Origin: a virus | IMG/VR virus record: IMGVR_UViG_3300042731_009673 | Coordinates: 1 to 25,900 of that record | Strand: one strand, 5' to 3' | DNA length: 25,900 bases | Shown here: positions 1 to 25,900 of the stretch, piece after piece | Layout: every line of letters begins with the position of its first letter | Numbering within the stretch: position 1 is the stretch's first letter | Notes under the pieces: generated by a model | Databases searched by the model: none | Told to the model about the DNA's origin: nothing | Seen by the model: only the letters and a program-made list of their open reading frames with translations | Translations under genes and position numbers: made by a program

Positions 1-263
1 GTCAGTACCATCTCGGAGCGAACCTCCGCCCATTGTTGTCAGAATACGTGTCACAGGATGACTTCGATTCCGCCGCGCTCACCCGTATCAAGAACGCCGT
101 ACAGCGCTGGATGCCATACATTGCGCTCGAAAACTACATCTCCGAGGTAGACCGCCAAGAAACGTCTAACACGAGGGCAGTCATCAAGCTAACGATCACA
201 TATGGCGTACCCGCGTTAAATGTCGCCCGACGGGCGCTCGAGCTTAAGCTGTATGTGATGTAA
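1..263 (+). CDS. Baseplate wedge protein, gp25-like (3' part)
   Basis: This is the 3' end of a gene entering from the left edge; the reading frame begins at base 3 and gives 86 residues to the TAA at 261-263. The visible part has the usual C-terminal pattern of the GPW/gp25 family: a helical stretch around LGANLRPLLSEYV, then ALTRIKNAVQRWMPYI, then alternating strands. T4 gp25 is about 132 residues, so roughly a third is missing upstream. In contractile-tailed phages gp25 joins the baseplate wedge to the sheath. The next gene is a gp6-like wedge protein, as expected for this module. The call is homology by eye; the missing N-terminus prevents a full check. Confidence 0.8.
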   Translation, partial: QYHLGANLRPLLSEYVSQDDFDSAALTRIKNAVQRWMPYIALENYISEVDRQETSNTRAVIKLTITYGVPALNVARRALELKLYVM

Positions 264-289
264 TGGGTCACGATACTTATCGGTGAAAG

Positions 290-3636: not shown

Positions 3637-3671
3637 GTTCCTAGGTATTACCGCGGCGTGAGGTCCCACCT

Positions 3672-7223: not shown

Positions 7224-7251
7224 CGGTATTCTCGTAACGAAAATGTGAACA

Positions 7252-8094: not shown

Positions 8095-8095
8095 C

Positions 8096-12286: not shown

Positions 12287-12312
12287 TCGCGGTCCACGAT
12301 ATGTACTAGTCG

Positions 12313-15300: not shown

Positions 15301-16008
15301 CTGCATGTCAGCGGAACGGTGCGTCACAGGACGGCACAACACCTTGACACGAAATACGATCCCGTGGCGTTGTACAAGCTTGATGGAAACCTCTCCGATT
15401 CATCCGTGTCTGGGCTCGCTGACCTTACGCTCGAATCAGGTATTGAACGTTACTGTCCTGTGTGTCCGGGTATGGTTGGATTTTGGTGTGATGCATCTAC
15501 GTCCCTGTACCTTAATTCGATCGAGTCTGTAGTTCAAATAACCGGTGACCTCACCGTCGAATGCATAGTCAATCCTGCCCAGATATTCTCAGCGAGTGGC
15601 GACCTCTTTTATTGTGCAGCTAGCGGAGAAACTGAAGCATCTAACTACGTGTATGCCTTAACGATTATCGCGTCTTCACACGTGTTGCAGTACTTTGCAG
15701 AGTATTCAGCCGGCACAAATATCGTTTTTCCGTCGTCCGGATCTGTTATTCCCGGCATTCCAGTTCACGTTGCAATGGTCAGAGAATCGAATGATGTTAC
15801 GTTCTATGCAAACGGTCAACAGATAGGAGCGGCATCAAGCGGATTAAACTCACCTTCGGGCGGAACGTCTGGGTTGTTACACATGAGCACAACCGGATTC
15901 GTTGGAGCGTTCTGTTCGGCAAAGATCATTGATAAGGCACTAAATCCTGATGAAATCAAGGATGAATACAATCGCTCGCTCGGACACTTGTATGGGTACA
16001 TCGAATGA
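12313..16008 (+). CDS. Repeat-containing tail fibre with two tandem LamG domains, 1231 aa
   Basis: Residues 1-155 resemble the N-terminal domain of many phage fibres ([21 protein letters not shown], then [14 protein letters not shown]). Residues 159-355 carry three copies of a fibre repeat (G-G-APVG-SYVVI-LDGTL--ERRLQV with [18 protein letters not shown]), with a fourth degenerate copy near 647. Residues 357-470 hold two copies of a 38-residue unit ending [13 protein letters not shown]. Two related LamG domains fill the C-terminus, about 709-933 and 1012-1231; both contain a -DSSGNG-like turn, a TVE-IV strand and a final YNRSLGHLY-like helix, so they look like a tandem duplication. This is a trimeric-fibre-like adhesin with carbohydrate-binding candidates at the tip. 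No clear SD precedes the ATG. Confidence 0.8.
13381..13494 (+). repeat. Internal fibre repeat, copy 1 (38 codons)
   Basis: In-frame unit of the 1231-residue fibre starting [18 protein letters not shown] and ending [18 protein letters not shown] second copy at 13552-13668 differs mainly at synonymous positions and a few conservative residues, so the duplication is old enough for third-position drift while the protein is conserved. Confidence 0.85.
13552..13668 (+). repeat. Internal fibre repeat, copy 2
   Basis: Second copy of the 38-codon unit at 13381-13494, reading [18 protein letters not shown] and ending [11 protein letters not shown]. It runs directly into the linker that is also found in the following gene (16178-16281). 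Confidence 0.85.
13651..13755 (+). repeat. Linker shared with the kelch gene, copy 1
   Basis: Encodes [20 protein letters not shown], then [14 protein letters not shown]. The counterpart at 16178-16281 in the next gene encodes nearly the same residues; 13708-13730 and 16233-16255 are identical over 23 bases. This is a candidate recombination point for swapping fibre tips. Confidence 0.85.
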
Positions 16009-17384
16009 CTTACGTTATCGGATCAGGTAGCTTCCTAGAGCAACACGGGACGGACGTCAAGGTCTGGGTCTCGGGATCCGACCAGGACCGTGCGGCGTTC
16101 CAAGGAACTGTCGTGCACTCCGGAAACGTGTACTTCGAGCAAGGCCTGACAGGTTCGATCCAGAGGCTAGCGGACGGCACCTCATACCTTGTTGGACAAG
16201 GCACGGTAACCGTGATCTCGCAGTCAAGCGGCCAGATCATCGTATCAGGCACCGGTGATGGTGGGGGAGGTGGAGGAGGAACGCTATCGCGTGACATATT
16301 TACGATTCCGATAATGGACGTCTGGGAAGATACCGGCGCGTCCTTGCCGGAATCGTTGACATGGATCAGATCATCAACGTTGTTGGTTAACAACGAAAAG
16401 ATTTACCTTGTCGGCGGTTACACCAGCGACGAAACCGCAACGAGAAGCATCTTTACGGCATCGATTTACACGCCAACGGATCTTGGCGTGTTTCATAACG
16501 CACTTCCAAACGCTCGTCGAGATCTTAGCAGCGTTATCGTCGGAAACAAAGCATACGCCTTCGGTGGCCGGGACGATTCAGCAACAACGGTTGCAACGAT
16601 CTTCACCGCATCATTGAGCGATATGACCGATTGGGGTACCTCAACTGGAACGCTCGTCGGCGCTAGAACACGTGCATTATGCGGGATAGTTAATGATAAG
16701 ATCTTCCTTGTTGGCGGCCGTGATGCGTCGGGCAACGATTATCGTACGATTGAAAGCGCATCAATTTCAGATCCAACAACATGGACAAGCACGGGATACG
16801 TGCTACCGACAGATGAATGTCCTGGAGCGCCAGGCGGATGGTACGTTTCAGAAAACCAAATGTACATTTATGGTGGTCGTCGTGACTTAAGCATCTCTGA
16901 TGACATTACAATCATCTCTGTGTCCGATCCACTATCATCAAAGACGTTGTTGGCAAAGTTACCAGCAGACAACCAATATCCATACGGAAACGGTGATATG
17001 ATTGTGGTCGGTAACGGAATATACATGCTCGCCGGTCACAATGACAGCGTGTACGTGTATGATATCATGTGCGCATACACCGGAGCGCCCACGGAAATCT
17101 CATACGTTGCCGGTAAGGTACCTGATAACGCTAACACGGGATTCAACTGTTATTGGATGGGACACGACGGAAAGGTGTATACGTTTGATAACACAGGAAA
17201 GATCTGGCGAACGAAGTATACAACAACGGCGTCGACGATGTTTCCAGTCGTATCAGGAACGTACGATGCCGTACCCGGCGTAACAAGAAACGGTGAGTTT
17301 GTCGCGTTGACATCATGGCAACGGTTATGCATGCCTCCATGGAGACACTCACCGGTAACAATAACGACCAGTAGCCTGGGTTAG
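16005..17384 (+). CDS. Tail fibre/receptor-binding protein with C-terminal kelch-type propeller, 459 aa
   Basis: The ATG overlaps the previous stop (ATGA), implying coupled translation. Residues 1-40 resemble fibre stem sequence, 45-92 duplicate the linker and Gly-rich hinge of the preceding fibre, and the rest contains about six repeats of 45-55 residues with a strand followed by a Gly pair: [11 protein letters not shown] (about 129), [11 protein letters not shown] (180), [11 protein letters not shown] (230), [10 protein letters not shown] (284), [10 protein letters not shown] (337) and KVYTFDNTG (388). This is the kelch beta-propeller pattern, and six repeats would make a closed six-bladed disc. 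It is the last gene of the tail operon, the usual place for host-range determinants. A receptor-binding role is inferred. No chaperone or protease motif is visible. Confidence 0.78.
16178..16281 (+). repeat. Linker shared with the 1231-aa fibre, copy 2
   Basis: Matches 13651-13755. The protein reads [20 protein letters not shown] followed by [10 protein letters not shown] and a Gly run. Codons differ at many third positions outside the central identical block. Confidence 0.85.
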
Positions 17385-17394
17385 GTAGGGCTGC

Positions 17395-17820
17395 TTAACG
17401 TTTTCCGCTGTCCTCGTGAGGTTCGATGTACATCACATCATGGTGATCCTCGTCCACGGTGAAGTACACGCGGCGGATCCCGTACCGCGAGAGCACCTGC
17501 CGGCACATCTCACACGGTTTGGCCAGCGCGATGTCGCCGTTCTTCGTGACCCTGGCGACGTACATCTTGCACCCGTCAAGGTCGATCTTCCTGCGGACCT
17601 TGAACACCGCGTCGATCTCCGCGTGCACGGTCCCGTCCGGGTGGTTCCCGTGGAAGAAAACGTACTCGTTCTGCCTCCGCGAGTTGACCCCCACGGACAG
17701 CACCTTCCCGCCCCTCACGATGACCGCCCCGAGGTGGGCAGGCAGGTCGTCCGGCAGACCGGTCCCTCGGGCCGCCTCGATGGCCACGAGAAAAAACCTG
17801 CTCAACCCGTCAATTGCCAC
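17395..17820 (-). CDS. CMP/dCMP-type (cytidine) deaminase family protein
   Basis: A 141-residue zinc deaminase. The catalytic motifs are intact: H67-A-E69 (HAEIDAVF) and P102-C-E-M-C106 (KPCEMCRQVL), giving the His/Cys/Cys zinc ligands and the Glu proton shuttle. The length fits the free-nucleotide deaminases. The substrate (dCMP, cytidine, a modified base or tRNA) cannot be settled from sequence; a nucleotide-metabolism role is the default for phage members. Translation starts at a GTG overlapping the RNA ligase stop (TAGTG), so it is probably the second gene of a ligase-deaminase transcription unit. It converges on the kelch gene with 10 bases between stops and no visible terminator hairpin. 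Confidence 0.85.
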   Translation of the reverse strand: MAIDGLSRFFLVAIEAARGTGLPDDLPAHLGAVIVRGGKVLSVGVNSRRQNEYVFFHGNHPDGTVHAEIDAVFKVRRKIDLDGCKMYVARVTKNGDIALAKPCEMCRQVLSRYGIRRVYFTVDEDHHDVMYIEPHEDSGKR

Positions 17821-19025
17821 TACCTGTCGAGCCCAAGATTCTTGAGAAGGGTGTCAAGGGCCCTCGTGCCCAACCGCCCGTGCGAGGCGAGGTTCCTGAG
17901 GACGTTGATCGCCTCGAATCCCCTGCCATCCAACAGGCTAAAGTAGACCGCGTGCCACTCGTGAGGGTTTGCGGTGACAAGTCGTGCGAACGTCTTGCGA
18001 TCACCGTTCGCCTCATCACGGCACTTCACGTAGAAGTTGTTGGTGCGAAGGTTCCACTCGCGCAGGGCGTCCTGCATCCTGCGCAGGTAGACCTTGGTCT
18101 CATCGCAGACCAGCGGGATCACGTCATCAAGGCGACCCTCGATCGCGGCGAACAACGCGTTCCTCCGCGAGGAGGTCACGCCGTCCTTCATCTTGGACGC
18201 AAGAACGTAGGCCTCGCTCTTGATCTTCATGCGACGGAACTTGGAATCAACGATCACCACACCTTCGGACTCCTTTGGGTCCTTGAGGTTCACCGCCGCC
18301 GCGATCGTCTTCGGATCGTAGAGGTTCCATCTCTCCGGCACGGGATAACCCATGAACTCCGCGATCTTGTTCACGTCTCCGCGCTCGCTCAAGTCGCCGA
18401 TGAGCTCGCGGACCGCGAGCAACGTGACCTTCCAATCGTCGTACTTGACAACGATTCGGTTGAATGGAGTCGTGAGCTCGAACACGTAGTTGAAGTACCT
18501 GACGGAGGATTCCTCAAGGTGACACTCGAACTGACGACCCGTGGTCACGGCGTATGCCTGACGAAACAACTTGCCAAACGTCATGTCATCGCCGGTGAAG
18601 TCGTTGATCGGAAGGTCCGCCTCAGGCACGGAACGCGTGGCGGTGCACCAGATCTCCTTGAGGGGATCAAAGTACACGCACACCATCGTGCCGTCAAGCT
18701 TCTCGAGGACGTGAAGGATGGGATCACTGAAGTCCACCTCCGCGACGCAGTCCTGACCCAGGTTGAAGAACCTGTCCATGGGATACGCCAGCACCGTGGT
18801 CTCACCCACGATTCCGGACCTCCAACAGCAATCAAGGTCCTTAGGACGCAGCACGAGACCGCGACACTGGCACGCCAGTGGGTCCGTCTCCTTGCTCGCG
18901 ATCTGGTCGTAGTTCAGGCTGAACTTCGTGCCGTCCGTGTCGGCGCGCCAGTTAACACCGTGCTCTTCCTTGAGTTCATCAAGGGTGTGCGTCAATAGGT
19001 AATCCTGTACGAGTAGCGTCCTCAT
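17820..19025 (-). CDS. rnlA: RNA ligase, T4 Rnl1 type
   Basis: A 401-residue member of the T4 RNA ligase 1 family (T4 Rnl1 is 374). The nucleotidyltransferase motifs occur in order: CRGLVLRP (54-61), YPMDRFFNLG (81-90), motif I EKLDGTMV with the adenylated lysine K109, motif IIIa VFELTTPFNR (181-190), motif IV ESEGVVIV (252-259) and motif V MKIKSEAY (266-273). The C-terminal 120 residues are helical, as in the tRNA-specificity domain of Rnl1. Known Rnl1 enzymes reseal tRNA cut by host anticodon nucleases, working with an end-healing kinase/phosphatase; no such kinase is in this window, but HAD and cREC-like proteins are nearby. Its ATG shares the bases CATG with the divergent HAD gene. Confidence 0.92.
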   Translation of the reverse strand: MRTLLVQDYLLTHTLDELKEEHGVNWRADTDGTKFSLNYDQIASKETDPLACQCRGLVLRPKDLDCCWRSGIVGETTVLAYPMDRFFNLGQDCVAEVDFSDPILHVLEKLDGTMVCVYFDPLKEIWCTATRSVPEADLPINDFTGDDMTFGKLFRQAYAVTTGRQFECHLEESSVRYFNYVFELTTPFNRIVVKYDDWKVTLLAVRELIGDLSERGDVNKIAEFMGYPVPERWNLYDPKTIAAAVNLKDPKESEGVVIVDSKFRRMKIKSEAYVLASKMKDGVTSSRRNALFAAIEGRLDDVIPLVCDETKVYLRRMQDALREWNLRTNNFYVKCRDEANGDRKTFARLVTANPHEWHAVYFSLLDGRGFEAINVLRNLASHGRLGTRALDTLLKNLGLDR

Positions 19026-19599
19026 GTCAGTTCCATTCTACCACAGGTTGCTCCGCGAGTTCACCGTCCAGGAGGTCTCACGTAAAAGATCACGTCGAAA
19101 ACTACGCGTTTTCGACTTCGATGACACGCTCGTGACAACGGACGCGGTGGTCAGGGTGAGGAAGGCCACGGGTGAACGACTGCGTCTCACACCTGGACAG
19201 TTCGCGTTGTACCAGAAGGAACCCGGAGACATCATGGATTACGGCGACTTCGAGACGCTGAAGAACCCACGCAAGATACTGTGGACGAACAGGATCATCG
19301 AATCGCTGTACGCAAAGTACGGACCTTCGGGTTTTGTTATCCTGACCGCCCGTGGCGAGCACGGTCCGGTCGAGAAGTTTCTGATCGATGCAGGATTGCC
19401 TGGCGTCGAGGTCGTGGCTCTCGGATCGTCAGATCCCAAGGCAAAGGCACGTTGGGTCTCGATGAAGATCGAGACCGAGGACCTCGATTACGTTGAGTTC
19501 TTTGACGACTCAGTGAAGAACATCGCGGCCGTCGCCGCGATCAGACCCGACCATCCGAACACGGACATCGTGGTCAGGCACATCAGATCGTCACAGTAA
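19024..19599 (+). CDS. HAD-superfamily phosphatase, 191 aa
   Basis: All HAD motifs are present: motif I VFDFDDTL (nucleophile D31, acid D33), motif II VILTAR (T108), a candidate motif III lysine in DPKAKARW (K139 or K141) and motif IV EFFDDS (D161, D162). The cap is small. Proteins of this type are common in large phages; the substrate is unknown, and 3'-end or nucleotide dephosphorylation is plausible beside an RNA ligase. It is the only plus-strand gene among minus-strand neighbours, overlapping the ligase start by 2 bases and the next gene's stop by 9. The start is uncertain: no SD precedes the ATG at 19024, TTG at 19048 is an alternative, and an AGGAGGT at 19070-19076 has no in-frame start after it. 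Confidence 0.82.
   Translation: MSVPFYHRLLREFTVQEVSRKRSRRKLRVFDFDDTLVTTDAVVRVRKATGERLRLTPGQFALYQKEPGDIMDYGDFETLKNPRKILWTNRIIESLYAKYGPSGFVILTARGEHGPVEKFLIDAGLPGVEVVALGSSDPKAKARWVSMKIETEDLDYVEFFDDSVKNIAAVAAIRPDHPNTDIVVRHIRSSQ
19035..19043 (-). promoter_or_regulatory. Possible extended -10 element for the RNA ligase gene
   Basis: Read on the minus strand this is TGGTAGAAT, an extended -10-like hexamer TAGAAT with a TGn upstream, ending 10 bases before the ligase ATG. A start point about 7 bases downstream would give an almost leaderless mRNA. No good -35 is seen. It lies within the 5' coding part of the divergent HAD gene and could be chance. Confidence 0.25.
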
Positions 19600-20064
19600 A
19601 CTTTCTTCTTTTTCAACCTCGGCGGCCATGATCACGTCCCAGCCTAGCTGCGAGTCAACAACGTTGATCGGCTGCACGACGTAGTCTTTGGTGATGACAC
19701 TACGTAGGGGCAAGACGTCGTCGACCACCCACCCAGCATGCATCAAGGACAACATTCCTCTCGGATCCTGTGTCTCCGTGAGTTGAAGTGACTTCATCAA
19801 CCTCACAGCCGAGATCCTCGTACCGTGGGTATCAAACCCGCCAGGCGCGGATGCATCTTCGTAGACGTATTGGTTTCCCAACCATTCGACCTCTATGAAG
19901 TTCGACGAATCGAGCGTCACCACTTCCACGTTCGGAAACGTGCTGAGCGCCTGCGGCGACATCCTGTACGTCTTGATCCACGAGTACATCGTTTCGGCGT
20001 TCGGAAACAGCGGAAAGTCGTGCTCCTGAACGCCGGGTCTGAGGTTTACACGTACGAGTCTCAT
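19591..20064 (-). CDS. Hypothetical protein, 157 aa
   Basis: No family is recognised. The protein is acidic and soluble with no membrane segment or cysteine. Its middle part (VEVVTLDSSNFIEVEWLGNQ, YVYED) looks like a small beta sheet, and its C-terminus ends in an acidic helix (AAEVEKEESLL). An SD-like AAGGA lies 11 bases before the ATG, and that ATG overlaps the stop of the upstream gene (TGATG), so the two are likely cotranslated. The 3' end overlaps the convergent HAD gene by 9 bases. Confidence 0.65.
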   Translation of the reverse strand: MRLVRVNLRPGVQEHDFPLFPNAETMYSWIKTYRMSPQALSTFPNVEVVTLDSSNFIEVEWLGNQYVYEDASAPGGFDTHGTRISAVRLMKSLQLTETQDPRGMLSLMHAGWVVDDVLPLRSVITKDYVVQPINVVDSQLGWDVIMAAEVEKEESLL

Positions 20065-20462
20065 CAGTGTTTGGTTCCTTTGTTGTCAACGAACTCATGG
20101 GCCAGCATGATGTCAACGTGGTCGCTCAGCTGCCTGGTGACGGACGCGTTTTTCACCTCGATCCACGGTCGCGTGTCGATCTCTTCATCGTCGTCAATAC
20201 CGCGATCGTAAAGAACCCGCGCAACATCGTGATCGCACAGCATCTCACCCGTTTCTGGATTCTCAAACGTTGCCAGTCGCCCACACTGTGAACACGGACG
20301 GATTGAACACAACGCCTCGTTGATGAGGATCGATTGGCTTGCGATTGCCGTGGCTGACACGCCGACGATCTGTTCGAGCTTCGCCATCCGTTCGATCACC
20401 TTGATGAGCACGGCAACTGACACGTTCCAATCGTATCCCGTTCGTGCGTGATGTTTTGGCAT
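20064..20462 (-). CDS. Hypothetical protein with a possible zinc-binding motif, 132 aa
   Basis: An N-terminal helix (about residues 15-35) is followed by a candidate metal site, C-S-Q-C then about 15 residues and C-D-H (RPCSQCGRLATF, then MLCDHDV), spaced like a small zinc ribbon. The C-terminal part is acidic and mixed. No family is recognised. The ATG at 20462 lies 4 bases after the mature end of tRNA-Ile and has no SD; M26 (ATG at 20387) has an AAGGTGAT about 8 bases upstream and is an alternative start. Confidence 0.6.
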   Translation of the reverse strand: MPKHHARTGYDWNVSVAVLIKVIERMAKLEQIVGVSATAIASQSILINEALCSIRPCSQCGRLATFENPETGEMLCDHDVARVLYDRGIDDDEEIDTRPWIEVKNASVTRQLSDHVDIMLAHEFVDNKGTKH

Positions 20463-20465
20463 CGG

Positions 20466-20541
20466 TGGGCCACAAGGGAATTGAACCCTTTAACGCAGAT
20501 CCTTATAAGAGACCCGACCCTGACCGAGAGTGCAATGGCCC
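20466..20541 (-). tRNA. tRNA-Ile (anticodon TAT)
   Basis: Acceptor GGGCCAT pairs with GTGGCCC; the anticodon arm is GGTCT-CTTATAA-GGATC with U33 and anticodon TAT (reads AUA). The T-arm is AAGGG-TTCAATT-CCCTT, and the discriminator A is followed by CCG, so CCA is not encoded. The variable region looks slightly long (about 7). Confidence 0.88.
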
Positions 20542-20549
20542 TCAATAGG

Positions 20550-20738
20550 TCACCGACGTATCACGGGGTCGACGGAGCTGACGCGTTCCATCGACACTAT
20601 CTTTGGGATGTCATTCGTTTCGATGCAGATCTCACCCTCGCGGTGCCAGACGCCCACGAGCTTCACCCCTGCGCGAACCAGGTCTCGCGCGAGCGTGTAG
20701 GCTTCACAGCCTTCGACGGGTTTCACGATGTACTTCAT
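20550..20738 (-). CDS. Small hypothetical protein, 62 aa
   Basis: I chose the ATG at 20738, which has an AGGTGG-type SD 9 bases upstream; the frame is open further 5' only because it runs through tRNA-Gly. The protein starts MKYIVKPVEGCEAYTLARDL and has a beta-alpha-beta pattern with an aromatic GVWHREGEI hairpin. No family is recognised. It is tucked between tRNA-Gly and tRNA-Ile, so it is probably cotranscribed with them. Confidence 0.6.
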   Translation of the reverse strand: MKYIVKPVEGCEAYTLARDLVRAGVKLVGVWHREGEICIETNDIPKIVSMERVSSVDPVIRR

Positions 20739-20780
20739 CTCACAGATCCACCTTTTCCACGACAATCCATACCCCTTCTG

Positions 20781-20853
20781 AGCAAGCAGCGGGATTCGAA
20801 CCCGCACCTCCTGGTTGGAAGCCAGGCATGCTGCCATTAAACACCATGCTCAC
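20781..20853 (-). tRNA. tRNA-Gly (anticodon TCC)
   Basis: Acceptor GTGAGCA/TGCTTGC (some G-U pairs), anticodon arm CCTGG-CTTCCAA-CCAGG with anticodon TCC, T-arm GCGGG-TTCGAAT-CCCGC, discriminator U as is usual for bacterial Gly. CCA is not encoded. Confidence 0.9.
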
Positions 20854-20861
20854 CTGGTTTT

Positions 20862-21095
20862 TCACTTTCTTATCGGAATCTTCTGCGTTAGCGGTTCATC
20901 GGTTGACGGATTCCCACCGAGTCCCATCGCCAGGCCGTTGGCCTTCGTTGCAACCTGCATGACCTCCCTACGCAGTACCTTGAGGTTCCCGATGAGCCGC
21001 GGGTCATCGGAACGTCCGATCAGGTCCTCCACCTGACGCTCCACGTCGTTCAGTTGGTTCATGATCGCCCACAGCTCGGGTCTGATGTTCTTCAT
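20862..21095 (-). CDS. Small helical hypothetical protein, 77 aa
   Basis: Starts at ATG 21095 with a GAGG SD about 6 bases upstream; a longer reading would run into tRNA-Ser(GGA). The protein is mostly one long amphipathic helix (ELWAIMNQLNDVERQVEDLI, then a second helix LKVLRREVMQVATKANGLA), consistent with a coiled-coil or oligomerising protein. The tail is polar. No family or function is recognised. Confidence 0.6.
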   Translation of the reverse strand: MKNIRPELWAIMNQLNDVERQVEDLIGRSDDPRLIGNLKVLRREVMQVATKANGLAMGLGGNPSTDEPLTQKIPIRK

Positions 21096-21116
21096 GTCTG
21101 CCTCAGACCTTAAGTA

Positions 21117-21207
21117 TGGCGGAAGGCGCGGGGGTCGAACCCGCAAGGCTGTTACGCTCGTCCGGCTTCCAACCGGGTGCCGTCGCCAACTTTCGGCTAG
21201 ACCTTCC
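21117..21207 (-). tRNA. tRNA-Ser (anticodon GGA)
   Basis: Acceptor GGAAGGT/GCCTTCC, anticodon stem CCGG/CCGG with loop TTGGAAG (GGA), a long class II variable arm (about 16 bases), T-arm GCGGG-TTCGACC-CCCGC, discriminator G, and CCA encoded at 21117-21119. The long variable arm and G73 support serine identity. Confidence 0.9.
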
Positions 21208-21312
21208 TCACAGCAAAAACGTGATCACGACCAACGTACCTAGTATCGTGATCAACGTAACGTAATCCCAAAACCCGAACCTGTACTTCCTTGGGTTTGG
21301 TGGGACGTTCAT
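21208..21312 (-). CDS. Small single-span membrane protein, 34 aa
   Basis: An ATG-to-TGA reading of 35 codons fills the gap between two serine tRNA genes; its stop abuts the 5' end of tRNA-Ser(GGA). The protein has a basic N-terminus (PPNPRKYRFGFWD) followed by a hydrophobic segment of about 18 residues (YVTLITILGTLVVITFLL) ending exactly at the stop. That is the layout of a tail- or C-terminally anchored micro-membrane protein with its N-terminus in the cytoplasm. No convincing SD is seen. Function is unknown. Confidence 0.5.
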   Translation of the reverse strand: MNVPPNPRKYRFGFWDYVTLITILGTLVVITFLL

Positions 21313-21334
21313 CACGGGATCAGTGAATTCCGAG

Positions 21335-21424
21335 TGGCGGAAGGAGGGAGAGTCGAACTCCCAAGGGGGTTTAATCCTCGACCGGGTTCGAGCCGGTTGC
21401 CGTCGCCCATCGGCTTGCCCTTCC
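21335..21424 (-). tRNA. tRNA-Ser (anticodon CGA)
   Basis: Acceptor GGAAGGG/TCCTTCC, anticodon arm ACCGG-CTCGAAC-CCGGT with anticodon CGA, long variable arm (about 18 bases), T-arm GGGAG-TTCGACT-CTCCC, discriminator G, CCA encoded at 21335-21337. Confidence 0.92.
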
Positions 21425-21442
21425 GTACCGCACAGTCCATAC

Positions 21443-21802
21443 CTATTGGCCGTACGGGATGTGTATGCTGGTGATTCCCCTGTCTCGCATGAAGTTCACC
21501 ATGTTCTGCGCCCCCACCGGGTTCCATGAGTGAACCACGATCGCGCCAGGAACACGATCACGGGGGAGTTCATCCGTGATGAACCTAACGACGTCCATCC
21601 CAGACCTCTCGACCAAAGTCTCATCGTCCAGCACTTCCCACTCTCCGAGGTCATGATCAAGTTGAACACGGTCAAACCATAGGTTGGACAGGGCGCTTAT
21701 CGCCTCGCTCACGCTCCTGGCGTGCACCACGTAGTGTCCCGAAAACCTGGCCGAAAACCAATCGTGACGCTGTTCCTGATCGTCCAAAACGAGGATCTTC
21801 AT
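21443..21802 (-). CDS. Receiver-like protein, cREC (cyclic-phosphate-processing receiver) type
   Basis: Starts at ATG 21802 (SD AAAGGA 8 bases upstream); longer readings run through tRNA genes. The 119-residue protein is a lone receiver-like domain: MKILVLDDQEQRHDWF with D7/D8 at the acidic pocket, QLDHDLGEW (D49, H50, D51) at the position of the phospho-acceptor strand, and VVHSWNPVGAQNM (H91, S92, N94). The HD and HSWNPVGA signatures match the family I know as cREC, predicted from genome context to act on cyclic-phosphate RNA ends, rather than ordinary response regulators. There is no output domain or histidine kinase nearby. The RNA ligase and HAD neighbours fit an RNA-end-processing role, which remains unproven. 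Confidence 0.65.
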   Translation of the reverse strand: MKILVLDDQEQRHDWFSARFSGHYVVHARSVSEAISALSNLWFDRVQLDHDLGEWEVLDDETLVERSGMDVVRFITDELPRDRVPGAIVVHSWNPVGAQNMVNFMRDRGITSIHIPYGQ

Positions 21803-21825
21803 CGTTCTTTTCCTTTCGTGATTTG

Positions 21826-21912
21826 CGGAGAGGGTGGGATTCGAACCCACGGTGGTGTTACCCACATCCGGGTAGCGGCCGGATACGATAAGCCTGGCTC
21901 TGTCACCTCTCC
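21826..21912 (-). tRNA. tRNA-Ser (anticodon GCT), with C33
   Basis: Acceptor GGAGAGG/CCTCTCC, T-arm GTGGG-TTCGAAT-CCCAC, long variable arm and discriminator G. The anticodon arm TCCGG-CCGCTAC-CCGGA puts GCT at 34-36 but C, not U, at position 33. CCA is not encoded. Confidence 0.85.
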
Positions 21913-21925
21913 ATGTGAATGATTT

Positions 21926-21999
21926 TGGTACCCAGCGAGGGAGTCGAACCCCCACCTCCTCCGTGTAAGAGAGGCGCGCTACCGTTACGCCAGCCGGGC
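21926..21999 (-). tRNA. tRNA-Val (anticodon TAC)
   Basis: Acceptor GCCCGGC/GCTGGGT, D-arm GCGT-AACGGTA-GCGC, anticodon arm CCTCT-CTTACAC-GGAGG (TAC), T-arm GGGGG-TTCGACT-CCCTC, discriminator A, CCA encoded at 21926-21928. Confidence 0.92.
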
Positions 22000-22010
22000 G
22001 TGTTCAGGCC

Positions 22011-22547
22011 TCAACCTACAAGGTTCCTAATTATACCCTCACGCGTGCTTTGTGTGCTTGACCTTGTTGGACGTCTCACCTGAGGAACCGGGTGTGCGAT
22101 GAACTCGACACCCGCGTCCATAACAGCGATCTCAAAACCGACGAGGTGACCGAACCTATCATCCCAGGCCTCGACGATCTCGATCGCCGGGTTTTCACGG
22201 ATGTACTTTGCGATCTTGAGTTCCTTGTACCGCGCCGTGGGCATGCCGACAGGCGTCAGCGCCACGTCGTCAAACGTGAGTCCCGCCTGGTCGAGCAGGT
22301 CGAGGATCCTACCGAGGTTCTCGCCACGTTTACGACCCGTGATCATCACCGTCATCACGTCAGGATCGGCCATCGACCGCAACGCTGCACTCACAACGGG
22401 AGAGTTCCACCATGTTGGACCGGGTCGATCGGGTACAAACGGTGGAAGCAACGACGCCGGGTTATCCCACCACTTTCCCTTCCACCCGCGAGGCGGAAGC
22501 GGGCTCGCAAAAAGTGTTCCGTCGAAATCGAAAACGTAAAGCTTCAC
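22011..22547 (-). CDS. HAD phosphatase resembling the Swiss Army Knife RNA-repair HAD family
   Basis: Starts at GTG 22547, one base after the stop of the upstream gene (TGACGTG), giving 178 residues beginning MKLYVFDFDGTLFASPLP. HAD motifs: D7/D9 (FDFDGTLF), T70 (VMITGRK), K111 (ELKIAKYI), D129/D130 (EAWDDR). Between motifs I and II it has GKWWDNPASLL and PTWWNSPVV, tryptophan-rich segments that I associate with the HAD_SAK_1 family linked to RNA repair. It differs clearly from the other HAD protein at 19024-19599. The substrate is unknown; removal of terminal phosphates from RNA is a reasonable inference next to a ligase and a cREC protein. Confidence 0.72.
   Translation of the reverse strand: MKLYVFDFDGTLFASPLPPRGWKGKWWDNPASLLPPFVPDRPGPTWWNSPVVSAALRSMADPDVMTVMITGRKRGENLGRILDLLDQAGLTFDDVALTPVGMPTARYKELKIAKYIRENPAIEIVEAWDDRFGHLVGFEIAVMDAGVEFIAHPVPQVRRPTRSSTQSTREGIIRNLVG
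22030..22035 (-). promoter_or_regulatory. Possible -10 box (TATAAT) upstream of the tRNA-Val/Ser cluster
   Basis: A perfect TATAAT on the minus strand, 30 bases before the 5' end of tRNA-Val(TAC), inside the last codons of the HAD gene. No good -35 is visible at 16-18 bases, so a phage-type or activator-dependent promoter would be needed. Confidence 0.35.
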
Positions 22548-22548
22548 G

Positions 22549-23031
22549 TCAATAAGTAGGCCACCACGCCGGCGCCGGCCGGGTGCGGTTCCACCTGGCA
22601 ATGTCCTTCTTCTCATGGATGTAGTACGCACGGTACGACAGAACGGCGTCCTTCCTCTTGTACGCATCAGGCATTGCAAGGGCAAAAGAGCTCGGATCAG
22701 CAACCTCATCAACGTCTGGCCACGGACGGTTTTCAAGCGACCAGACGATAGCATCGTAACACCCGTGTTCCTTATCGTACCTAAACGTGTACTCGCTCAA
22801 CAACGCAAGCGCGTGGCGCTGCAACCACCACCAGTTCTTGACATCCGAGGCTGCCCAAAGCGTACAAGGGTGATGCACGTGAGTCGACCTGTACGGAGCG
22901 TTTCCGTTTCCGTGGATCCTCGCGACGGTTGAGAGCATCTGGGCGCTCTCGAGGACCATCTTGACCACGTGCTTGTCACATTGCATCTGTGCGGCTAACG
23001 CGGGTGACCTATCAAGGACGAATATGTTCAT
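22549..23031 (-). CDS. Conserved phage protein with CDKH motif, 160 aa
   Basis: The sequence matches a family I have seen in many large and cyanophage genomes: it opens MNIFVLDRSPALAAQMQCDK, continues HVVKMVLESAQMLS, then HVHHPCTLWAAS, and later FALAMPDAYK and AVLSYRAYYI, ending in a WWP motif. The invariant-looking Cys, His and Lys residues (CDKH near 18-21, HHPC near 53-56) suggest metal binding or catalysis, but I know of no proven function. The ATG overlaps the stop of the upstream peptidyl-tRNA hydrolase (ATGA), and its own stop is one base from the GTG of the HAD gene, so the three are probably one cotranslated unit. Confidence 0.7.
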   Translation of the reverse strand: MNIFVLDRSPALAAQMQCDKHVVKMVLESAQMLSTVARIHGNGNAPYRSTHVHHPCTLWAASDVKNWWWLQRHALALLSEYTFRYDKEHGCYDAIVWSLENRPWPDVDEVADPSSFALAMPDAYKRKDAVLSYRAYYIHEKKDIARWNRTRPAPAWWPTY

Positions 23032-23420
23032 AGGGGTTTCAAGTGTCCTGTGACCTTATCAACAACGTCGACGTATGTCGGACCGAACGCAGCGCACGTC
23101 ATCGTTGGTTCACCGTGAAATTCCGTACGACCTGAGTCAACTATCGGATACACCTCGATACCCATGAGCTTCGCCTTTAGTATGAGGTCACCGAGTTGGT
23201 CCTCAGAATCGCAACCCAGGACGATCTTGGTGAAAGCTTCACCCTTCCAGATCGCCTCGGTCTCGTTGAGCGGAACCTCCAACCTCATCGGATCGTCTGA
23301 CTCGTTGTTGTCAAAGACGAACTTCATGGCCGCGTGGCCTACCTGTGCCGCGAGCTTTCCCTTCCTCATGTTCAGGTCCTTCCGCACGACGATGACCTGC
23401 TTGACCTCGCGTTCACCCAT
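23028..23420 (-). CDS. Peptidyl-tRNA hydrolase, type 2 (Pth2 family)
   Basis: 130 residues, slightly longer than the usual 115-residue Pth2 core. Family signatures are clear: VVRKDLNMRKGKLAAQVGHA (K22, Q26, H29) at the active site, FTKIVLGCDSEDQLGDLILK (helix packing), IVDSGRTEF (D95, G97, R98, T99) and the terminal DKVTGHLKPL. Pth2 frees tRNA from peptidyl-tRNA dropped by stalled ribosomes. It is standard in archaea and eukaryotes while bacteria normally use unrelated Pth1, so a phage copy is notable. The SD AAGGA lies 8 bases before the ATG. It overlaps the upstream gene by 8 bases and the downstream gene by 4. Its place among tRNA genes supports a translation-maintenance role. Confidence 0.9.
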   Translation of the reverse strand: MGEREVKQVIVVRKDLNMRKGKLAAQVGHAAMKFVFDNNESDDPMRLEVPLNETEAIWKGEAFTKIVLGCDSEDQLGDLILKAKLMGIEVYPIVDSGRTEFHGEPTMTCAAFGPTYVDVVDKVTGHLKPL

Positions 23421-23607
23421 CGGTTCCGTCCTTTCTGGGACCTAATCCCGGGTTCCACAACGGATCCGGGTCCGGCGCGTTGATCCCGTGCCATGCCTTG
23501 ATGTCAGCGGCCATCTCAGGCGTCCAACTCACCCTAAGCTTGCGAGGTGGGGCGGTGGGATCGATGTCGATGACCTTGATCAACGCATCACGTTTGTCAC
23601 CCGACAT
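23413..23607 (-). CDS. Small hypothetical protein, 64 aa
   Basis: I chose ATG 23607 because GAGGTG sits just upstream as an SD; a GTG two codons earlier is the alternative. The protein starts MSGDKRDALIKVIDIDP and contains LRVSWTPEMAADIKAWHG, followed by a Pro/Asp-rich tail. No cysteine, membrane segment or known motif is seen. It overlaps the Pth2 gene by 8 bases, so coupling is likely, and its start lies 13 bases from the mature 3' end of tRNA-Val(GAC). Confidence 0.6.
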   Translation of the reverse strand: MSGDKRDALIKVIDIDPTAPPRKLRVSWTPEMAADIKAWHGINAPDPDPLWNPGLGPRKDGTDG

Positions 23608-23620
23608 GCCCACCTCGCGG

Positions 23621-23694
23621 TACCGGGTCGGGGGATCGAACCCCGCAGGGACCTGCTTGTCGAGCAGGCGTGTTCACCAGCTCACTCACCCGGC
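23621..23694 (-). tRNA. tRNA-Val (anticodon GAC), with C33
   Basis: Acceptor GCCGGGT/ACCCGGT, anticodon arm CCTGC-TCGACAA-GCAGG with GAC at 34-36 and C at 33, T-arm CGGGG-TTCGATC-CCCCG, discriminator A followed by CCG (no full CCA). Position 8 is G rather than the usual U. Its 5' 13 bases overlap the end of the basic-protein gene. Confidence 0.82.
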
Positions 23695-23951
23695 TTGGTG
23701 CGTCTCTTCTTGTTTTCGGCGTCCTTCGACCTTTTCTCGGCCACGTCCTTCTCGGTTCGGGCCTTCTTCACCTTCGATTCGATCAAGGCAGCGAGACGGG
23801 CGCGCTGCTTCTTTGCGCCCTGATCCTTGCCCAACCTGTCATCCAACACCTTGAGTTGTTGCTTCGGCGTGAGCTTCCTCCAGGCCTCGTTGCTGGCCTG
23901 GGCGTTCTTGGCGCGTTCCTCGCGGCGCGATTTGCTATTCTTATTCGACAC
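23682..23951 (-). CDS. Highly basic helical protein, 89 aa
   Basis: Starts at GTG 23951 behind a strong SD (GGAGGAGG). About a third of residues are Lys or Arg, and the pattern is almost wholly helical (MSNKNSKSRREERAKNAQAS, then LTPKQQLKVLDDRLGK, then KVKKARTEKDVAEKRSKDAE), suggesting a nucleic-acid-binding or coiled-coil protein. Its last codons (KPGE and TGA) are read from the first 13 bases of tRNA-Val(GAC). No family is recognised. Confidence 0.68.
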   Translation of the reverse strand: MSNKNSKSRREERAKNAQASNEAWRKLTPKQQLKVLDDRLGKDQGAKKQRARLAALIESKVKKARTEKDVAEKRSKDAENKKRRTKPGE

Positions 23952-23987
23952 TGTCCTCCTCCTTGTAAGATTCTCGGGACATTAACG

Positions 23988-23996
23988 ACTGTACCA
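23988..23996 (-). promoter_or_regulatory. Possible extended -10 element for the basic-protein gene
   Basis: Minus-strand TGGTACAGT, 37 bases before the GTG at 23951, in one of the few short non-coding gaps (23952-24017). It resembles TGGTAGAAT upstream of the RNA ligase. The -35 position is occupied by a palindrome (23998-24015) rather than a consensus hexamer. Confidence 0.25.
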
Positions 23997-23997
23997 C

Positions 23998-24015
23998 GTT
24001 AAACACGTGTTTTAC
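23998..24015. promoter_or_regulatory. 18-bp near-perfect palindrome, possible operator
   Basis: The core AAACACGTGTTT (24001-24012) is a perfect inverted repeat, extended to 18 bases with one mismatched pair. It lies directly beside the encoded CCA of tRNA-Arg(TCT) and just upstream of the -10-like TACAGT for the next gene. It lacks a loop and a U-run, so it looks more like a dimeric protein-binding site than a terminator. Confidence 0.35.
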
Positions 24016-24017
24016 AC

Positions 24018-24095
24018 TGGTACCCCCGGTAGGATTCGGACCCACAACCTCTCGAGTAGAAATCGAGCGCTCTATCCAGTTGATGCTACGGGGGC
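24018..24095 (-). tRNA. tRNA-Arg (anticodon TCT)
   Basis: Acceptor GCCCCCG/CGGGGGT, anticodon arm CTCGA-TTTCTAC-TCGAG (TCT, reads AGA), T-arm GTGGG-TCCGAAT-CCTAC with C at the usual second T-loop position, discriminator A, CCA encoded at 24018-24020. The D-arm resembles other Arg tRNAs but carries one extra A in its 5' strand. Confidence 0.88.
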
Positions 24096-24096
24096 A

Positions 24097-24176
24097 TGGA
24101 GCCGACCACAGGATTCGAACCCGCATGTGTCCAATTACCCTTTCACCGCCTTAGGAGGGCGAGGGGATACGCCGGC
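24097..24176 (-). tRNA. Aberrant tRNA-Arg-like gene (anticodon CCT), no canonical D-arm
   Basis: The 3' half is normal: T-arm GCGGG-TTCGAAT-CCTGT, acceptor strand GGTCGGC, discriminator U and encoded CCA (24097-24099). The 5' strand GCCGGCG pairs with it at six of seven positions. The anticodon arm TCGCC-CTCCTAA-GGCGG is clear and gives CCT (reads AGG). However, only 7 bases separate acceptor and anticodon stems, too few for a D-arm, and 21 bases separate the anticodon arm and T-stem. Those 21 bases include a D-loop-like AATTGG. It could be a D-armless tRNA, a rearranged tRNA or a decaying pseudogene. It lies 1 base upstream of tRNA-Arg(TCT). Confidence 0.55.
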
Positions 24177-24177
24177 G

Positions 24178-24504
24178 TCAGTTCTTTGCGTTGATGATCT
24201 CTATCAGTTGCCTCTCCGTGATCTTGGCGTCATCCATCCAGTTCACGGGCACGTTGGTCTCCGGAACGCGTCGGTACACGACGATCTCCCAATTGAATGG
24301 GATGGTTGTGTGCTCGTAACGCTCTGAGCTTTGTGACCATTCCTTTCGCAGAGCAAGGTGCGCCTTCAATTGACCCAACGTTGGCCATGCCTTTCCGTGT
24401 TTCGACCATTTTGGCGGGTTTCCTCCGCAGGAAAACAACCCCGTCGTGCGATCACGGATCTTGAAGACGTACTCACCCGTGCTTGCGCTTCTTTCCCTTG
24501 TCAC
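24178..24504 (-). CDS. Hypothetical phage protein, 108 aa
   Basis: The start is inferred at GTG 24504, with AGAGGA just upstream; the frame is open further 5' but runs through tRNA-Arg(CCG). The segment EYVFKIRDRTTGLFSCGGNP followed by WSKHGKAWPTLGQLKAHL matches a recurring small phage protein type I have seen without a known function. The rest is a beta strand (NWEIVVYRRV) and a C-terminal helix. It overlaps the upstream zinc-finger-like gene by 32 bases in another frame. Its stop is one base from the 5' end of the aberrant Arg tRNA. Confidence 0.6.
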   Translation of the reverse strand: MTRERSASTGEYVFKIRDRTTGLFSCGGNPPKWSKHGKAWPTLGQLKAHLALRKEWSQSSERYEHTTIPFNWEIVVYRRVPETNVPVNWMDDAKITERQLIEIINAKN

Positions 24505-24802
24505 GCTTCCTCTTTCGCTTGGAGCGCCCACCGGGACTCGAACCCGGATCCACACCTTCGGAGGGTGTGATGTTGTCCGCTACACCATGGACGCCTAAAT
24601 CGTACCTCTTACAGTAGGCACGGTACGCCTCGGCATCATGCGTTTCTGAGTGCATCTTCCCGTGATTCACGTAACAACTGATGCATATCGTCGCACCGCA
24701 ACCGAAACCACACGGATAGATCTCTTCAGGTGACTTGATCTTCGCGATCACGTGTTGGGTACCGCACGTCGGACAGGCTGCAACGAAATGCCTGTCATTC
24801 AT
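24473..24802 (-). CDS. Cys-rich, probably zinc-binding protein, 109 aa, containing a nested tRNA gene
   Basis: The start ATG 24802 overlaps the upstream stop (ATGAATGA); an earlier ATG at 24823 is possible. Cysteines occur as CPTCGTQHVI (about 10-13), YPCGFGC (about 31-35) and ICISCYVNHGKMH (about 40-50), a pattern suited to one or two zinc sites. From about residue 70 onward the reading passes in frame through the whole of tRNA-Arg(CCG), then ends in a very basic tail (KRKRKRDKGKKRKHG). Either the protein truly uses tRNA-encoded residues or the tRNA landed in its 3' end. No family is recognised. Confidence 0.58.
   Translation of the reverse strand: MNDRHFVAACPTCGTQHVIAKIKSPEEIYPCGFGCGATICISCYVNHGKMHSETHDAEAYRAYCKRYDLGVHGVADNITPSEGVDPGSSPGGRSKRKRKRDKGKKRKHG
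24520..24594 (-). tRNA. tRNA-Arg (anticodon CCG)
   Basis: Acceptor GCGTCCA/TGGGCGC, D-arm GTGT-AGCGGACA-ACAT, anticodon arm ACACC-CTCCGAA-GGTGT (CCG, reads CGG), T-arm CCGGG-TTCGAGT-CCCGG, CCA encoded at 24520-24522. The discriminator is U, unusual for Arg; A20 and C35, the main Arg identity bases, are present. The gene is nested in the preceding coding sequence. Confidence 0.88.
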
Positions 24803-25100
24803 CGGTCGTAACGACCTTGCCATCGTCGGTGTTCTTTGCGCTTAGCGCCAGCACGATCTTGGCCAATGTTTCCTTGGGAAGCCTTCCGTCCCAAACGTTC
24901 GAAACCGAAACCTCGTAAACGTCACCGCGCTTCATCACAAAGACCCACGAACCCTGGAACGTTCGAACGATCATGTGACGGGCTTCATCAGCCTCCTCGT
25001 ACGTGTTGAACGTCGCCACGACCTGATCGGATCGTCTGTCATCAACGGCGTTTCCTTCTCCATCATGGTTTGCGGGTGTGTCTGTCGGTTGGGTCTTCAT
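24795..25100 (-). CDS. Hypothetical acidic protein, 101 aa
   Basis: Starts at ATG 25100 with a strong SD (AAGGAG, about 6 bases upstream), 16 bases after the end of tRNA-Leu. The N-terminal 25 residues are polar and probably disordered (TDTPANHDGEGNAVDDRRSD). Residues 27-80 look like a compact beta-alpha-beta fold (QVVATFNTYEEADEARHMIV, then SWVFVMKRGDVYEVSVS), and an acidic tail follows. No catalytic motif or family is recognised. Its stop overlaps the start of the zinc-finger-like gene by 8 bases. Confidence 0.65.
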   Translation of the reverse strand: MKTQPTDTPANHDGEGNAVDDRRSDQVVATFNTYEEADEARHMIVRTFQGSWVFVMKRGDVYEVSVSNVWDGRLPKETLAKIVLALSAKNTDDGKVVTTDE

Positions 25101-25116
25101 GCGTTCTCCTTGTGAT

Positions 25117-25205
25117 TGGTGCTACCGAGAGGATTCGAACCTCCACGCCCTTTCGAGCACTGGTTTCTGAGACCAGCGTGTCTACCTGAGTTCCACCACG
25201 GTAGC
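25117..25205 (-). tRNA. tRNA-Leu (anticodon CAG)
   Basis: Acceptor GCTACCG/CGGTAGC fully paired, anticodon arm CTGGT-CTCAGAA-ACCAG (CAG, reads CUG), long class II variable arm, T-arm GGAGG-TTCGAAT-CCTCT, discriminator A, CCA encoded at 25117-25119. Confidence 0.93.
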
Positions 25206-25209
25206 GTGA

Positions 25210-25527
25210 TCATACCTGACTCTTTCGTTCCTGTTCAACCTCATAGTCGCACACCGTTTTCACGGTGCGTACGCGGTACTCCGCGAGCCTTGCGAAGCCA
25301 TCTCGACAGGCACGTTCCTTGACCATTGCGTGGATCTTGTCCCGTGAGACCGCTGACACCTCGGTGACTGTTCCTTCGCGATCGATGCAGGCCCACATTG
25401 TGGGACCGTTGACGTCCGCCCGCTTGTATGCTTCAACCTCGCGGCGTAGCTTGCGGGTCTTCCACGCGTCGTATGCCCCATACAACACGATGACCAGGAC
25501 GACGAGCGCAAGCGTGGAGACGTTCAC
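25210..25527 (-). CDS. Membrane-anchored hypothetical protein, 105 aa
   Basis: Starts at GTG 25527 with an SD (GGAG) about 9 bases upstream; the GTG overlaps the previous stop (GTGA). An N-terminal transmembrane segment (about residues 4-20, TLALVVLVIVLYGAYDA) is followed at once by WKTRKLRRE, so by the positive-inside rule the C-terminal 85 residues face the cytoplasm. That domain is mixed alpha/beta (TMWACIDREGTVTEVSAVSR) with no known motif. It is translated together with a second membrane or secreted peptide just upstream. Confidence 0.68.
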   Translation of the reverse strand: MNVSTLALVVLVIVLYGAYDAWKTRKLRREVEAYKRADVNGPTMWACIDREGTVTEVSAVSRDKIHAMVKERACRDGFARLAEYRVRTVKTVCDYEVEQERKSQV

Positions 25528-25721
25528 TTCTTCATCTCCTTCCTGATCTCCTTCAACGTCTGGCTGATCTCGCCGAGGTGCTTCGCGACCTGTACCATTG
25601 GGTCCTCAAACGACCTTGCCTGCGCCGATCCCGCACCGATGAAGGTTCCAAACATCGTACCGATCACCAAGCACGTGACGGCAAGCGCCACGGCTCTCAT
25701 GGTTTGCCTTGCTTTTTCCAT
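25524..25721 (-). CDS. Small exported or membrane protein, 65 aa
   Basis: The N-terminus is basic (MEKARQTMR), then hydrophobic (AVALAVTCLVIGTMFGTFIG), then AGSAQARSF, a good signal-peptidase-like AQA site near residue 35. The remaining 30 residues form an amphipathic helix (VQVAKHLGEISQTLKEIRKE). It could be a secreted helix or a single-span membrane protein with its C-terminus outside. A GAGGT lies 12 bases before the ATG, and the stop of the NADAR gene is 4 bases upstream. Function is unknown. Confidence 0.65.
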   Translation of the reverse strand: MEKARQTMRAVALAVTCLVIGTMFGTFIGAGSAQARSFEDPMVQVAKHLGEISQTLKEIRKEMKK

Positions 25722-25725
25722 GTTT

Positions 25726-25900
25726 CTATTCTACCTCGTCTTCCTCGTCCTTTTCACGGCGGATCTCATCGCGAACCTCCATGAGGATCTTACCGAGGTG
25801 GTTCTCACCGACGCCGGTCCGCATGCAAACGCCGAAGAACCTATCGTTCCAGTAGTTCCCTTCGATCAGCTCCGCGTCGCCGGTGGCGAGGAGGAGGGGC
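25726..25900 (-). CDS. NADAR-family protein (C-terminal fragment)
   Basis: The gene runs off the right edge; 57 residues are visible up to the TAG at 25728-25726. The sequence LLATGDAELIEGNYWNDRFF followed by GVC and GVGENHLGKILMEVRDE is the conserved C-terminal signature of the NADAR/YbiA (DUF1768) family, with the Glu-Gly-Asn and Gly-Glu-Asn-His motifs of the active-site region. Family members hydrolyse N-glycosidic bonds, including riboflavin intermediates, and some remove ADP-ribose from modified nucleic acid. In a phage this suggests NAD/ADP-ribose metabolism or countering ADP-ribosylating defence. The last ten residues are acidic (EKDEEDEVE). Confidence 0.82.
   Translation of the reverse strand, partial: PLLLATGDAELIEGNYWNDRFFGVCMRTGVGENHLGKILMEVRDEIRREKDEEDEVE

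Follow-up and report, generated by a model that had tools for sequence, protein, structure and literature searches.

The closest described systems to the one considered here are the T4 pair of polynucleotide kinase-phosphatase and RNA ligase (Pnkp and Rnl1, whose genes are named PseT and RnlA), the bacterial Pnkp1/Rnl/Hen1 system, and a repertoire of jumbo phages set out in two papers by Iyer, Burroughs and Aravind. That repertoire, which includes Rnl1, HAD, cREC, Pth2 and NADAR proteins and was presented as serving repair and counter-conflict, was published in 2021 (PMC7824862) and 2022 (PMC9503650). The DNA under study is the entire 25,900-base IMG/VR record IMGVR_UViG_3300042731_009673, a linear fragment of a virus contig, referred to here as the window. 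A prediction made from its sequence alone had proposed that genes for RNA repair and tRNA maintenance in a contractile-tailed phage form a composite counter-defence module with a healing step unlike T4's. As far as the searches show, what is new is a syntenic island and, within it, an Rnl1 gene in a divergent pair with a gene for a stand-alone HAD phosphatase, while the parts list and the counter-conflict reading are already in print. No description of a collinear island of tRNA genes, Pth2, NADAR and the HAD-Rnl1 pair was found in the searches, which covered open-licence papers.

The reading I consider probable is that the locus is a tail-adjacent cassette for the supply and repair of tRNA, in which RNA ends are healed mainly by a distant Pnkp and in which the stand-alone HAD, a second phosphatase (HAD_SAK_1) and cREC are accessories. 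The evidence comes from gene identities, intact motifs, synteny and the presence of Pnkp in four long relatives. The records compared are all fragments or of unknown completeness. Relatives of the tail gene at 3672-7223 number 48 in IMG/VR, several of them on contigs 160-340 kb long, and there are none in the collection of named phages (E limit 1e-5, as in every search of that collection). The source therefore looks like an uncultivated huge-phage lineage, and the window is probably one piece of a huge bacteriophage genome, with genes for tRNAs and for their repair and recycling. The site after the tail genes is usually occupied in the relatives by Pth2 and NADAR, both present in 11 of the 15 records fetched (some near-identical). 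Among the other four, G014 has neither, G004 has only Pth2 but stops shortly beyond it, and G018 and G022 are cut off too soon to tell.

Rnl1 was found in a subset of the tail-gene relatives. Its own comparison covered the best 80 of 170 relatives' loci, and 43 loci at 34-50% identity (L003 and L100-L141) will be called near. Together with the window, whose label was assigned by hand, they fall into 13 with a HAD gene beside Rnl1, 25 with Pnkp no more than about 5 kb upstream, six with neither (two of which are cut short beside Rnl1) and none with both. The order in loci of the HAD type is NADAR, tRNAs, Pth2, tRNAs, a gene of unknown function, HAD (divergent), Rnl1 and the convergent tail genes; individual loci lack some of these parts or would have them beyond the contig. 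This tail-adjacent island is conserved across related contigs, and its tRNAs are mostly collinear: every type shared with the window keeps its order in 8 of the 10 relatives tested. The agreement extends to nine of nine shared types in L100 (matched by none of 20,000 shuffles) and eight of nine in L105 (3 of 20,000 as good); L123 is a weak case, with four of five (2,858 of 20,000). Over 270 kb, the 14 island-type loci have 159 tRNAs, as against 5 over 456 kb of the 25 Pnkp-type Rnl1 loci, a count that includes duplicate records and, among the 14, two loci without HAD (L101 and L123).

In a tree of Rnl1 the HAD and Pnkp types fall largely into two lineages (the three labels take 7 changes, the minimum being 2), so the local exclusion of one by the other is mostly a matter of one history. 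Repeated replacement beside Rnl1 was considered and rejected on this ground, and because the HAD type keeps Pnkp elsewhere. Several IMG/VR records are duplicates, and the tree left out L104, L110, L129, L131 and L140 for being identical to others, as well as L137 and L141 for being short; all of these stayed in the counts of tRNA density, of tRNA order and of HAD/Pnkp labels. The tree's label PNKP for L001 reflects a weak kinase-only match (31 bits) with no match to PF25109.

A full Pnkp, consisting of an AAA_33 kinase and a PF25109 (HAD_PNKP) phosphatase at 137-161 bits, is present in all four island-type records longer than 300 kb: G006 (340 kb), G028 (309 kb), G030 (324 kb) and G033 (369 kb). 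By contig coordinates it lies 149-171 kb from Rnl1. No kinase passes the cut-off in the nine other island-type records (26-191 kb), none of which extends 149 kb from its Rnl1; one of them, G035, has a weak kinase match of 17.5 bits. In an earlier set, AAA_33 matches occurred in all six records with a PF09511 match, a family whose profile, when whole records were searched, failed to pick up the Rnl1 of the window itself and was replaced there by phrog_562. Profile searches found no polynucleotide kinase in the window, but the window is a 25.9-kb fragment, and absence within it says little. Since the four long relatives carry Pnkp and the shorter ones never reach that distance, the absence is best explained by truncation. 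Healing without a kinase was rejected as the leading view after the whole-record kinase search and the checks of full-length Pnkp, and the claim that healing here is unlike T4's is not supported, in view both of these four relatives and of the lack of cREC and HAD_SAK_1 in the available flanks of the 43 near Rnl1 genes.

The ligase of the window scores 36.2 bits against PF09511 (cut-off 28.3) and 133.5 bits against phrog_562. The catalytic motifs of Rnl1-type ligases (KxDG, Glu, EG and KxK) are intact, residues K109/D111/G112, E183, E254/G255 and K267/K269 being invariant in 7 sequences. With 71.4 bits it falls under the TIGR02308 cut-off of 242 for equivalogs of T4 RnlA, and each of the 753 records matched among named phages is below 60% identity; judged by its sequence, it is a member of the family and not a close orthologue of T4 RnlA.

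From these identities I infer the substrates and the counter-defence role as follows. Phage tRNAs would replace host tRNAs lost to cleavage in infection, which accords with the hypothesis that phage tRNAs resist host tRNases (PMC10264068), and Rnl1 would reseal cleaved tRNA halves. Most ends would be healed by the T4-type Pnkp about half a genome away (5' kinase and 3' phosphatase); the stand-alone HAD beside Rnl1 would contribute extra phosphatase capacity, and HAD_SAK_1 and cREC would be optional end-cleaning extras gained in this member. Pth2 would release tRNAs from stalled peptidyl-tRNA, as in its proposed role in ribosome rescue or the freeing of peptidyl-tRNA (PMC7824862), and NADAR would strip ADP-ribose off guanines, since all the NADARs tested, T4's and bacterial, remove it from guanosine in RNA (PMC11833690).

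Several points weigh against this scheme. NADARs are inactive on ADP-ribosylated phosphate ends of RNA (PMC11833690), and the NADAR of an E. coli phage gave no protection from DarT1 in vivo (PMC11125620), so NADAR does not have to be part of end healing. Incomplete records in which no Rnl1 was found can likewise carry the stand-alone HAD (L004, L005/L006, L071, L077 and L094), and its tie to Rnl1 is therefore not obligatory. Pnkp in this particular genome is presumed from its relatives, the window being a short fragment, and the phage tRNAs may serve codon supply only.

The stand-alone HAD itself passes no Pfam cut-off (best PF12710, 13.2 bits) and finds no match among named phages, and its best PHROG, at 24.9 bits, is phrog_415, annotated as polynucleotide kinase. 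The residues of its DFDDT, [TS]AR, K and DD motifs are conserved in 9 sequences. Its AF2 model (pLDDT 82.6), compared with HAD folds, reaches Z 11.8 with the T4 Pnkp phosphatase, tied with others, and Z 11.4 with residues 173-309 of Pnkp1 (4xrp); the best matches in Foldseek are to MDP-1. There is no match to PF25109 up to E 1, nor up to E 0.1 for the HAD relatives in L063 and L005, as against 137-162 bits for five Pnkps. Membership of the PNKP family was accordingly rejected: the T4 Pnkp phosphatase does stand near the head of the VIA-align list, but its Z-score is tied with those of unrelated HADs. The gene adjoins Rnl1 in 12 of the 43 near loci in addition to the window (two of the 12, L105 and L106, carry distant HADs, about 90 bits); the expectation that an HAD would be found beside Rnl1 in relatives is thus partly borne out for this protein but not for HAD_SAK_1, found in none of the available flanks. 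One might suppose that this phosphatase is devoted to damaged tRNA ends of a second class, even though the long relatives also carry Pnkp; toxins may, for example, leave phage tRNAs with a 2'- or 3'-phosphate that Pnkp handles poorly. I think this unlikely. If true, the island would be a second repair line, coupled to a tRNA array and apart from the T4 type, whose range cREC and HAD_SAK_1 would widen in some members.

The density and collinearity of the tRNA arrays would also suit an island that mainly supplies tRNAs for late-translation codon use, with Rnl1 and the other enzymes as maintenance and no role in counter-defence. It is consistent with this that, of 31 records searched, more have PTH2 (21) or NADAR (18) than have a member of the Rnl1 family (12). 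However, Rnl1 has HAD or Pnkp beside it in 38 of the 44 near loci (window included), which points to the repair of broken RNA and not to supply alone, and resistance of phage tRNAs to host tRNases is a published alternative (PMC10264068). Supply as the main function is on balance quite unlikely.

The cREC protein scores 60.5 bits against PF20274 (cut-off 27), with D7, D8, D49, H50, D51, H91, N94 and G97 invariant in 7 sequences; its activity on cyclic phosphates is given as a prediction (PMC7824862; PMC9503650). HAD_SAK_1 scores 64.5-64.7 bits against PF10307 (cut-off 25.6), with the residues of its FDFDxT, TGR, K and DDR motifs invariant in 6 sequences, and its GTG start is one base past the stop of the preceding gene. 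Among named phages cREC has no match and HAD_SAK_1 has four, all uncultured phages of 485-642 kb. In the original prediction these proteins made healing independent of T4's enzymes and of any phage kinase: cREC would open the 2',3'-cyclic phosphate, the HADs would remove the phosphate, and Rnl1 would seal. I hold this to be very unlikely, even with all the enzymes lying within about 5 kb in the window and their motifs intact. T4 Pnkp itself processes 2',3'-cyclic phosphates, so cREC would not be required for that step.

Nor does a comparison of neighbourhoods bring out a conserved module of Rnl1, cREC, HAD_SAK, Pth2 and NADAR; Pth2 and NADAR do recur in the island type. For the 43 near Rnl1 genes, flanks of up to 10 kb were available, and in them neither cREC nor HAD_SAK_1 is the best assignment of any ORF; 39 of these loci have at least 5 kb upstream of Rnl1, the side where both lie in the window, and 16 have less than 9 kb to one side of it. 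L100 and L106 give weak matches to HAD_SAK (26 and 31 bits), but in ORFs that score higher for another family. Across 28 whole records (13 island-type and 15 Pnkp-type) cREC occurs in four and HAD_SAK_1 in none, the same search being positive in 6 of 29 records of another set. On the other hand, two of the four long island-type records, G028 and G030, do have cREC (at distances from Rnl1 of about 249 and 32 kb), 10 of 80 cREC loci in other phages show the start of a remote Rnl1-type ORF no more than about 1.2 kb before cREC (four identically spaced, and two further loci with the ORF more distant), and HAD_SAK_1 directly precedes Rnl1 in G001/L001. The proximity and the gene order agree with the proposal, made along with a linkage of cREC to RNA ligases, that cREC and HAD proteins clean RNA ends for ligases (PMC7824862). 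By the same source, ATP-grasp ligases such as Rnl1 require a 5'-phosphate, so metal-independent cuts would still need a kinase, and a kinase, in the form of Pnkp, is what the long relatives carry. Of the prediction as a whole, the theme of tRNA maintenance and RNA repair is upheld by the conserved island and its mostly collinear tRNAs; the composite counter-defence module stands as an idea that was in print before (PMC7824862), with cREC and HAD_SAK_1 outside the conserved island.

Some arrangements in other records concern the same families. In L001 (7559-11730) a kinase ORF that may include a phosphodiesterase domain is followed by HAD_SAK_1 and then Rnl1, apparently a compact and complete set for healing and sealing ends, to judge from its sequence; the kinase ORF has two H-x-T-like motifs and a match of 20.9 bits to tRNA_lig_CPD (fungal tRNA-ligase phosphodiesterase), under the cut-off of 23. 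Two public phage records of 634-642 kb, LR756502.1 and LR745206.1 (W03 and W04), have cREC, HAD_SAK_1, Rnl1, P-loop kinases, a weak PTH2 and NADAR, scattered across the genome and not in one island. Pnkp-type locus L114 has at 4975-5922 a second P-loop ORF of about 310 aa before Pnkp, whose product also has a DYDGT motif, and like ORFs occur in L112, L115, L120, L122 and L138. In L082 (572-1296) the probable start of cREC lies within a deaminase ORF (572-931), and weak deaminase matches (27 bits) begin about 335 bases before cREC in L186 and L189; the window has both genes in one island.

T4 gp63 doubles as a tail-fibre attachment protein, but it is highly improbable that Rnl1 is here chiefly such a protein, conserved for its place beside the tail genes, since, for all that it adjoins the tail genes and is convergent with them in island-type loci and that phrog_562 bears the attachment name, it lies on the strand opposite them, the same as the tRNA genes, its ligase motif residues are conserved, and none of 25 sister-lineage Pnkp-linked Rnl1 loci matches the three tail genes tested (in the available flanks).

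Features of the window are collected in Table 1.

Table 1. Features of the 25,900-base window. Bit scores are given with the cut-off of the profile where both are listed.
Feature	Position	Strand	Remarks
Tail genes	3-17384	plus	
Cytidine/dCMP-type deaminase	17395..17820	minus	directly after Rnl1; PF00383 57.2 bits (cut-off 25), phrog_174 dCMP deaminase
T4 Rnl1-type RNA ligase	17820..19025	minus	PF09511, phrog_562, TIGR02308, motif residues
Stand-alone HAD phosphatase (predicted)	19024..19599	plus	divergent from Rnl1, 2-base overlap; phrog_415
Conserved protein of unknown function	19591..20064	minus	many tail-gene relatives have a homologue at this position, beside Pth2/NADAR
tRNA cluster 1: Ile(tat), Gly(tcc), Ser(gga), Ser(cga), Ser(gct), Val(tac)	20464..21999	minus	ARAGORN; collinear with relatives
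cREC receiver-like protein, predicted cyclic-phosphate processing	21443..21802	minus	inside tRNA cluster 1; PF20274
HAD_SAK_1 phosphatase (predicted)	22011..22547	minus	PF10307; GTG start read from sequence
Pyr_excise / phrog_624 protein, DNA-repair-like, not RNA repair	22549..23031	minus	PF03013 28.3 bits (cut-off 23), phrog_624 E 3.4e-57
Pth2, archaeal-type peptidyl-tRNA hydrolase	23028..23420	minus	PF01981, TIGR00283
tRNA cluster 2: Val(gac), Arg(tct), tRNA-like (cct), Arg(ccg), Leu(cag)	23619..25205	minus	ARAGORN; tRNA-like fold 24097-24176
NADAR C-terminal fragment	25726..25899	minus	cut by contig end; PF08719, phrog_1017

The product of 290-2131 has Baseplate_J and baseplate-wedge family matches in the profile search, as befits the contractile tail that had been predicted. 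From 17395 the minus strand carries the deaminase, Rnl1, the unknown gene, cREC, HAD_SAK_1, the Pyr_excise-like gene, Pth2 and the end of NADAR, together with small unknown ORFs and ten tRNAs. Profile searches of the small proteins, which had been suggested as a check, place Rnl1, the deaminase, cREC, HAD_SAK_1, PTH2 and NADAR above curated cut-offs. The original gene list is therefore sound in these, with NADAR reduced to an end fragment and the gene at 22549-23031 to be added; what had been seen as one minus-strand block is interrupted by the plus-strand HAD gene at 19024-19599.

Pth2 scores 105.7 bits against PF01981 (cut-off 23), 87.5 against TIGR00283 (cut-off 82) and 97.7 against NF003314, the last under its cut-off of 126. 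The 57 codons of NADAR, the last third of the gene, give 39.3 bits against PF08719 (cut-off 35.1), covering only profile positions 110-163 of 163, and E 4.9e-17 against phrog_1017. The adjacency of Rnl1 and the deaminase is found also in L105. The protein of 19591-20064 has a confident AF2 model (pLDDT 84.4), for whose fold there is no PDB match below E 0.001.

The ten tRNAs are those called by ARAGORN. Six of them also pass in Rfam, where a seventh has a sub-threshold match to tRNA-Sec. Eleven tRNA or tRNA-like genes had been claimed, and the eleventh is a tRNA-like stretch (24097-24176, minus strand) called by neither program. It has a 6-bp acceptor stem, a T arm, an encoded CCA and an anticodon-type loop with CCT, its D-loop-like sequence comes after the anticodon-like arm, not before it, and it occupies the position of tRNA-Arg(cct) in several relatives. 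A nucleotide search with the window matched 60 records, and the 20 listed all hit the tRNA-Ser stretch 21335-21428 at about 79-80%. In L109, ARAGORN calls at 8761 a tRNA with the anticodon tta (stop) where others carry Ile(tat); this is probably no suppressor but an anticodon call displaced by one base.

The published jumbo-phage repair repertoire is now located in one conserved, testable island, where the tRNAs keep a largely fixed order, Pth2 is set within their array and the partner of Rnl1 is an uncharacterised stand-alone HAD. With Pnkp about half a genome away in each of the four relatives of sufficient length, the case also illustrates how readings of a missing kinase from short contigs can mislead.

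With the bacterial Pnkp1/Rnl/Hen1 system the locus shares little: the model of the plus-strand HAD aligns to Pnkp1, with a Z of 11.4 tied with many other HADs, and neither Hen1 nor a kinase domain was seen within the window. The likeness to the jumbo-phage repertoire (PMC7824862; PMC9503650) is much closer, as it extends to Rnl1, a Pnkp-HAD or Swiss-army-knife HAD, cREC, PTH2, NADAR and phage tRNAs and to the same proposed roles. The window differs in pairing Rnl1 divergently with a stand-alone HAD that has no Pfam PNKP-phosphatase match, and in setting the pair in a collinear tRNA island by the tail genes, an arrangement absent from the available portions of the published text. From the Pnkp-Rnl1 pair of T4 it differs in having no Pnkp in the window, the Pnkp of four relatives standing 149-171 kb from Rnl1, and in its extra phosphatases, cREC, Pth2 and NADAR; it resembles that pair in its Rnl1-family ligase with intact motifs and in the full Pnkp that its long relatives carry.

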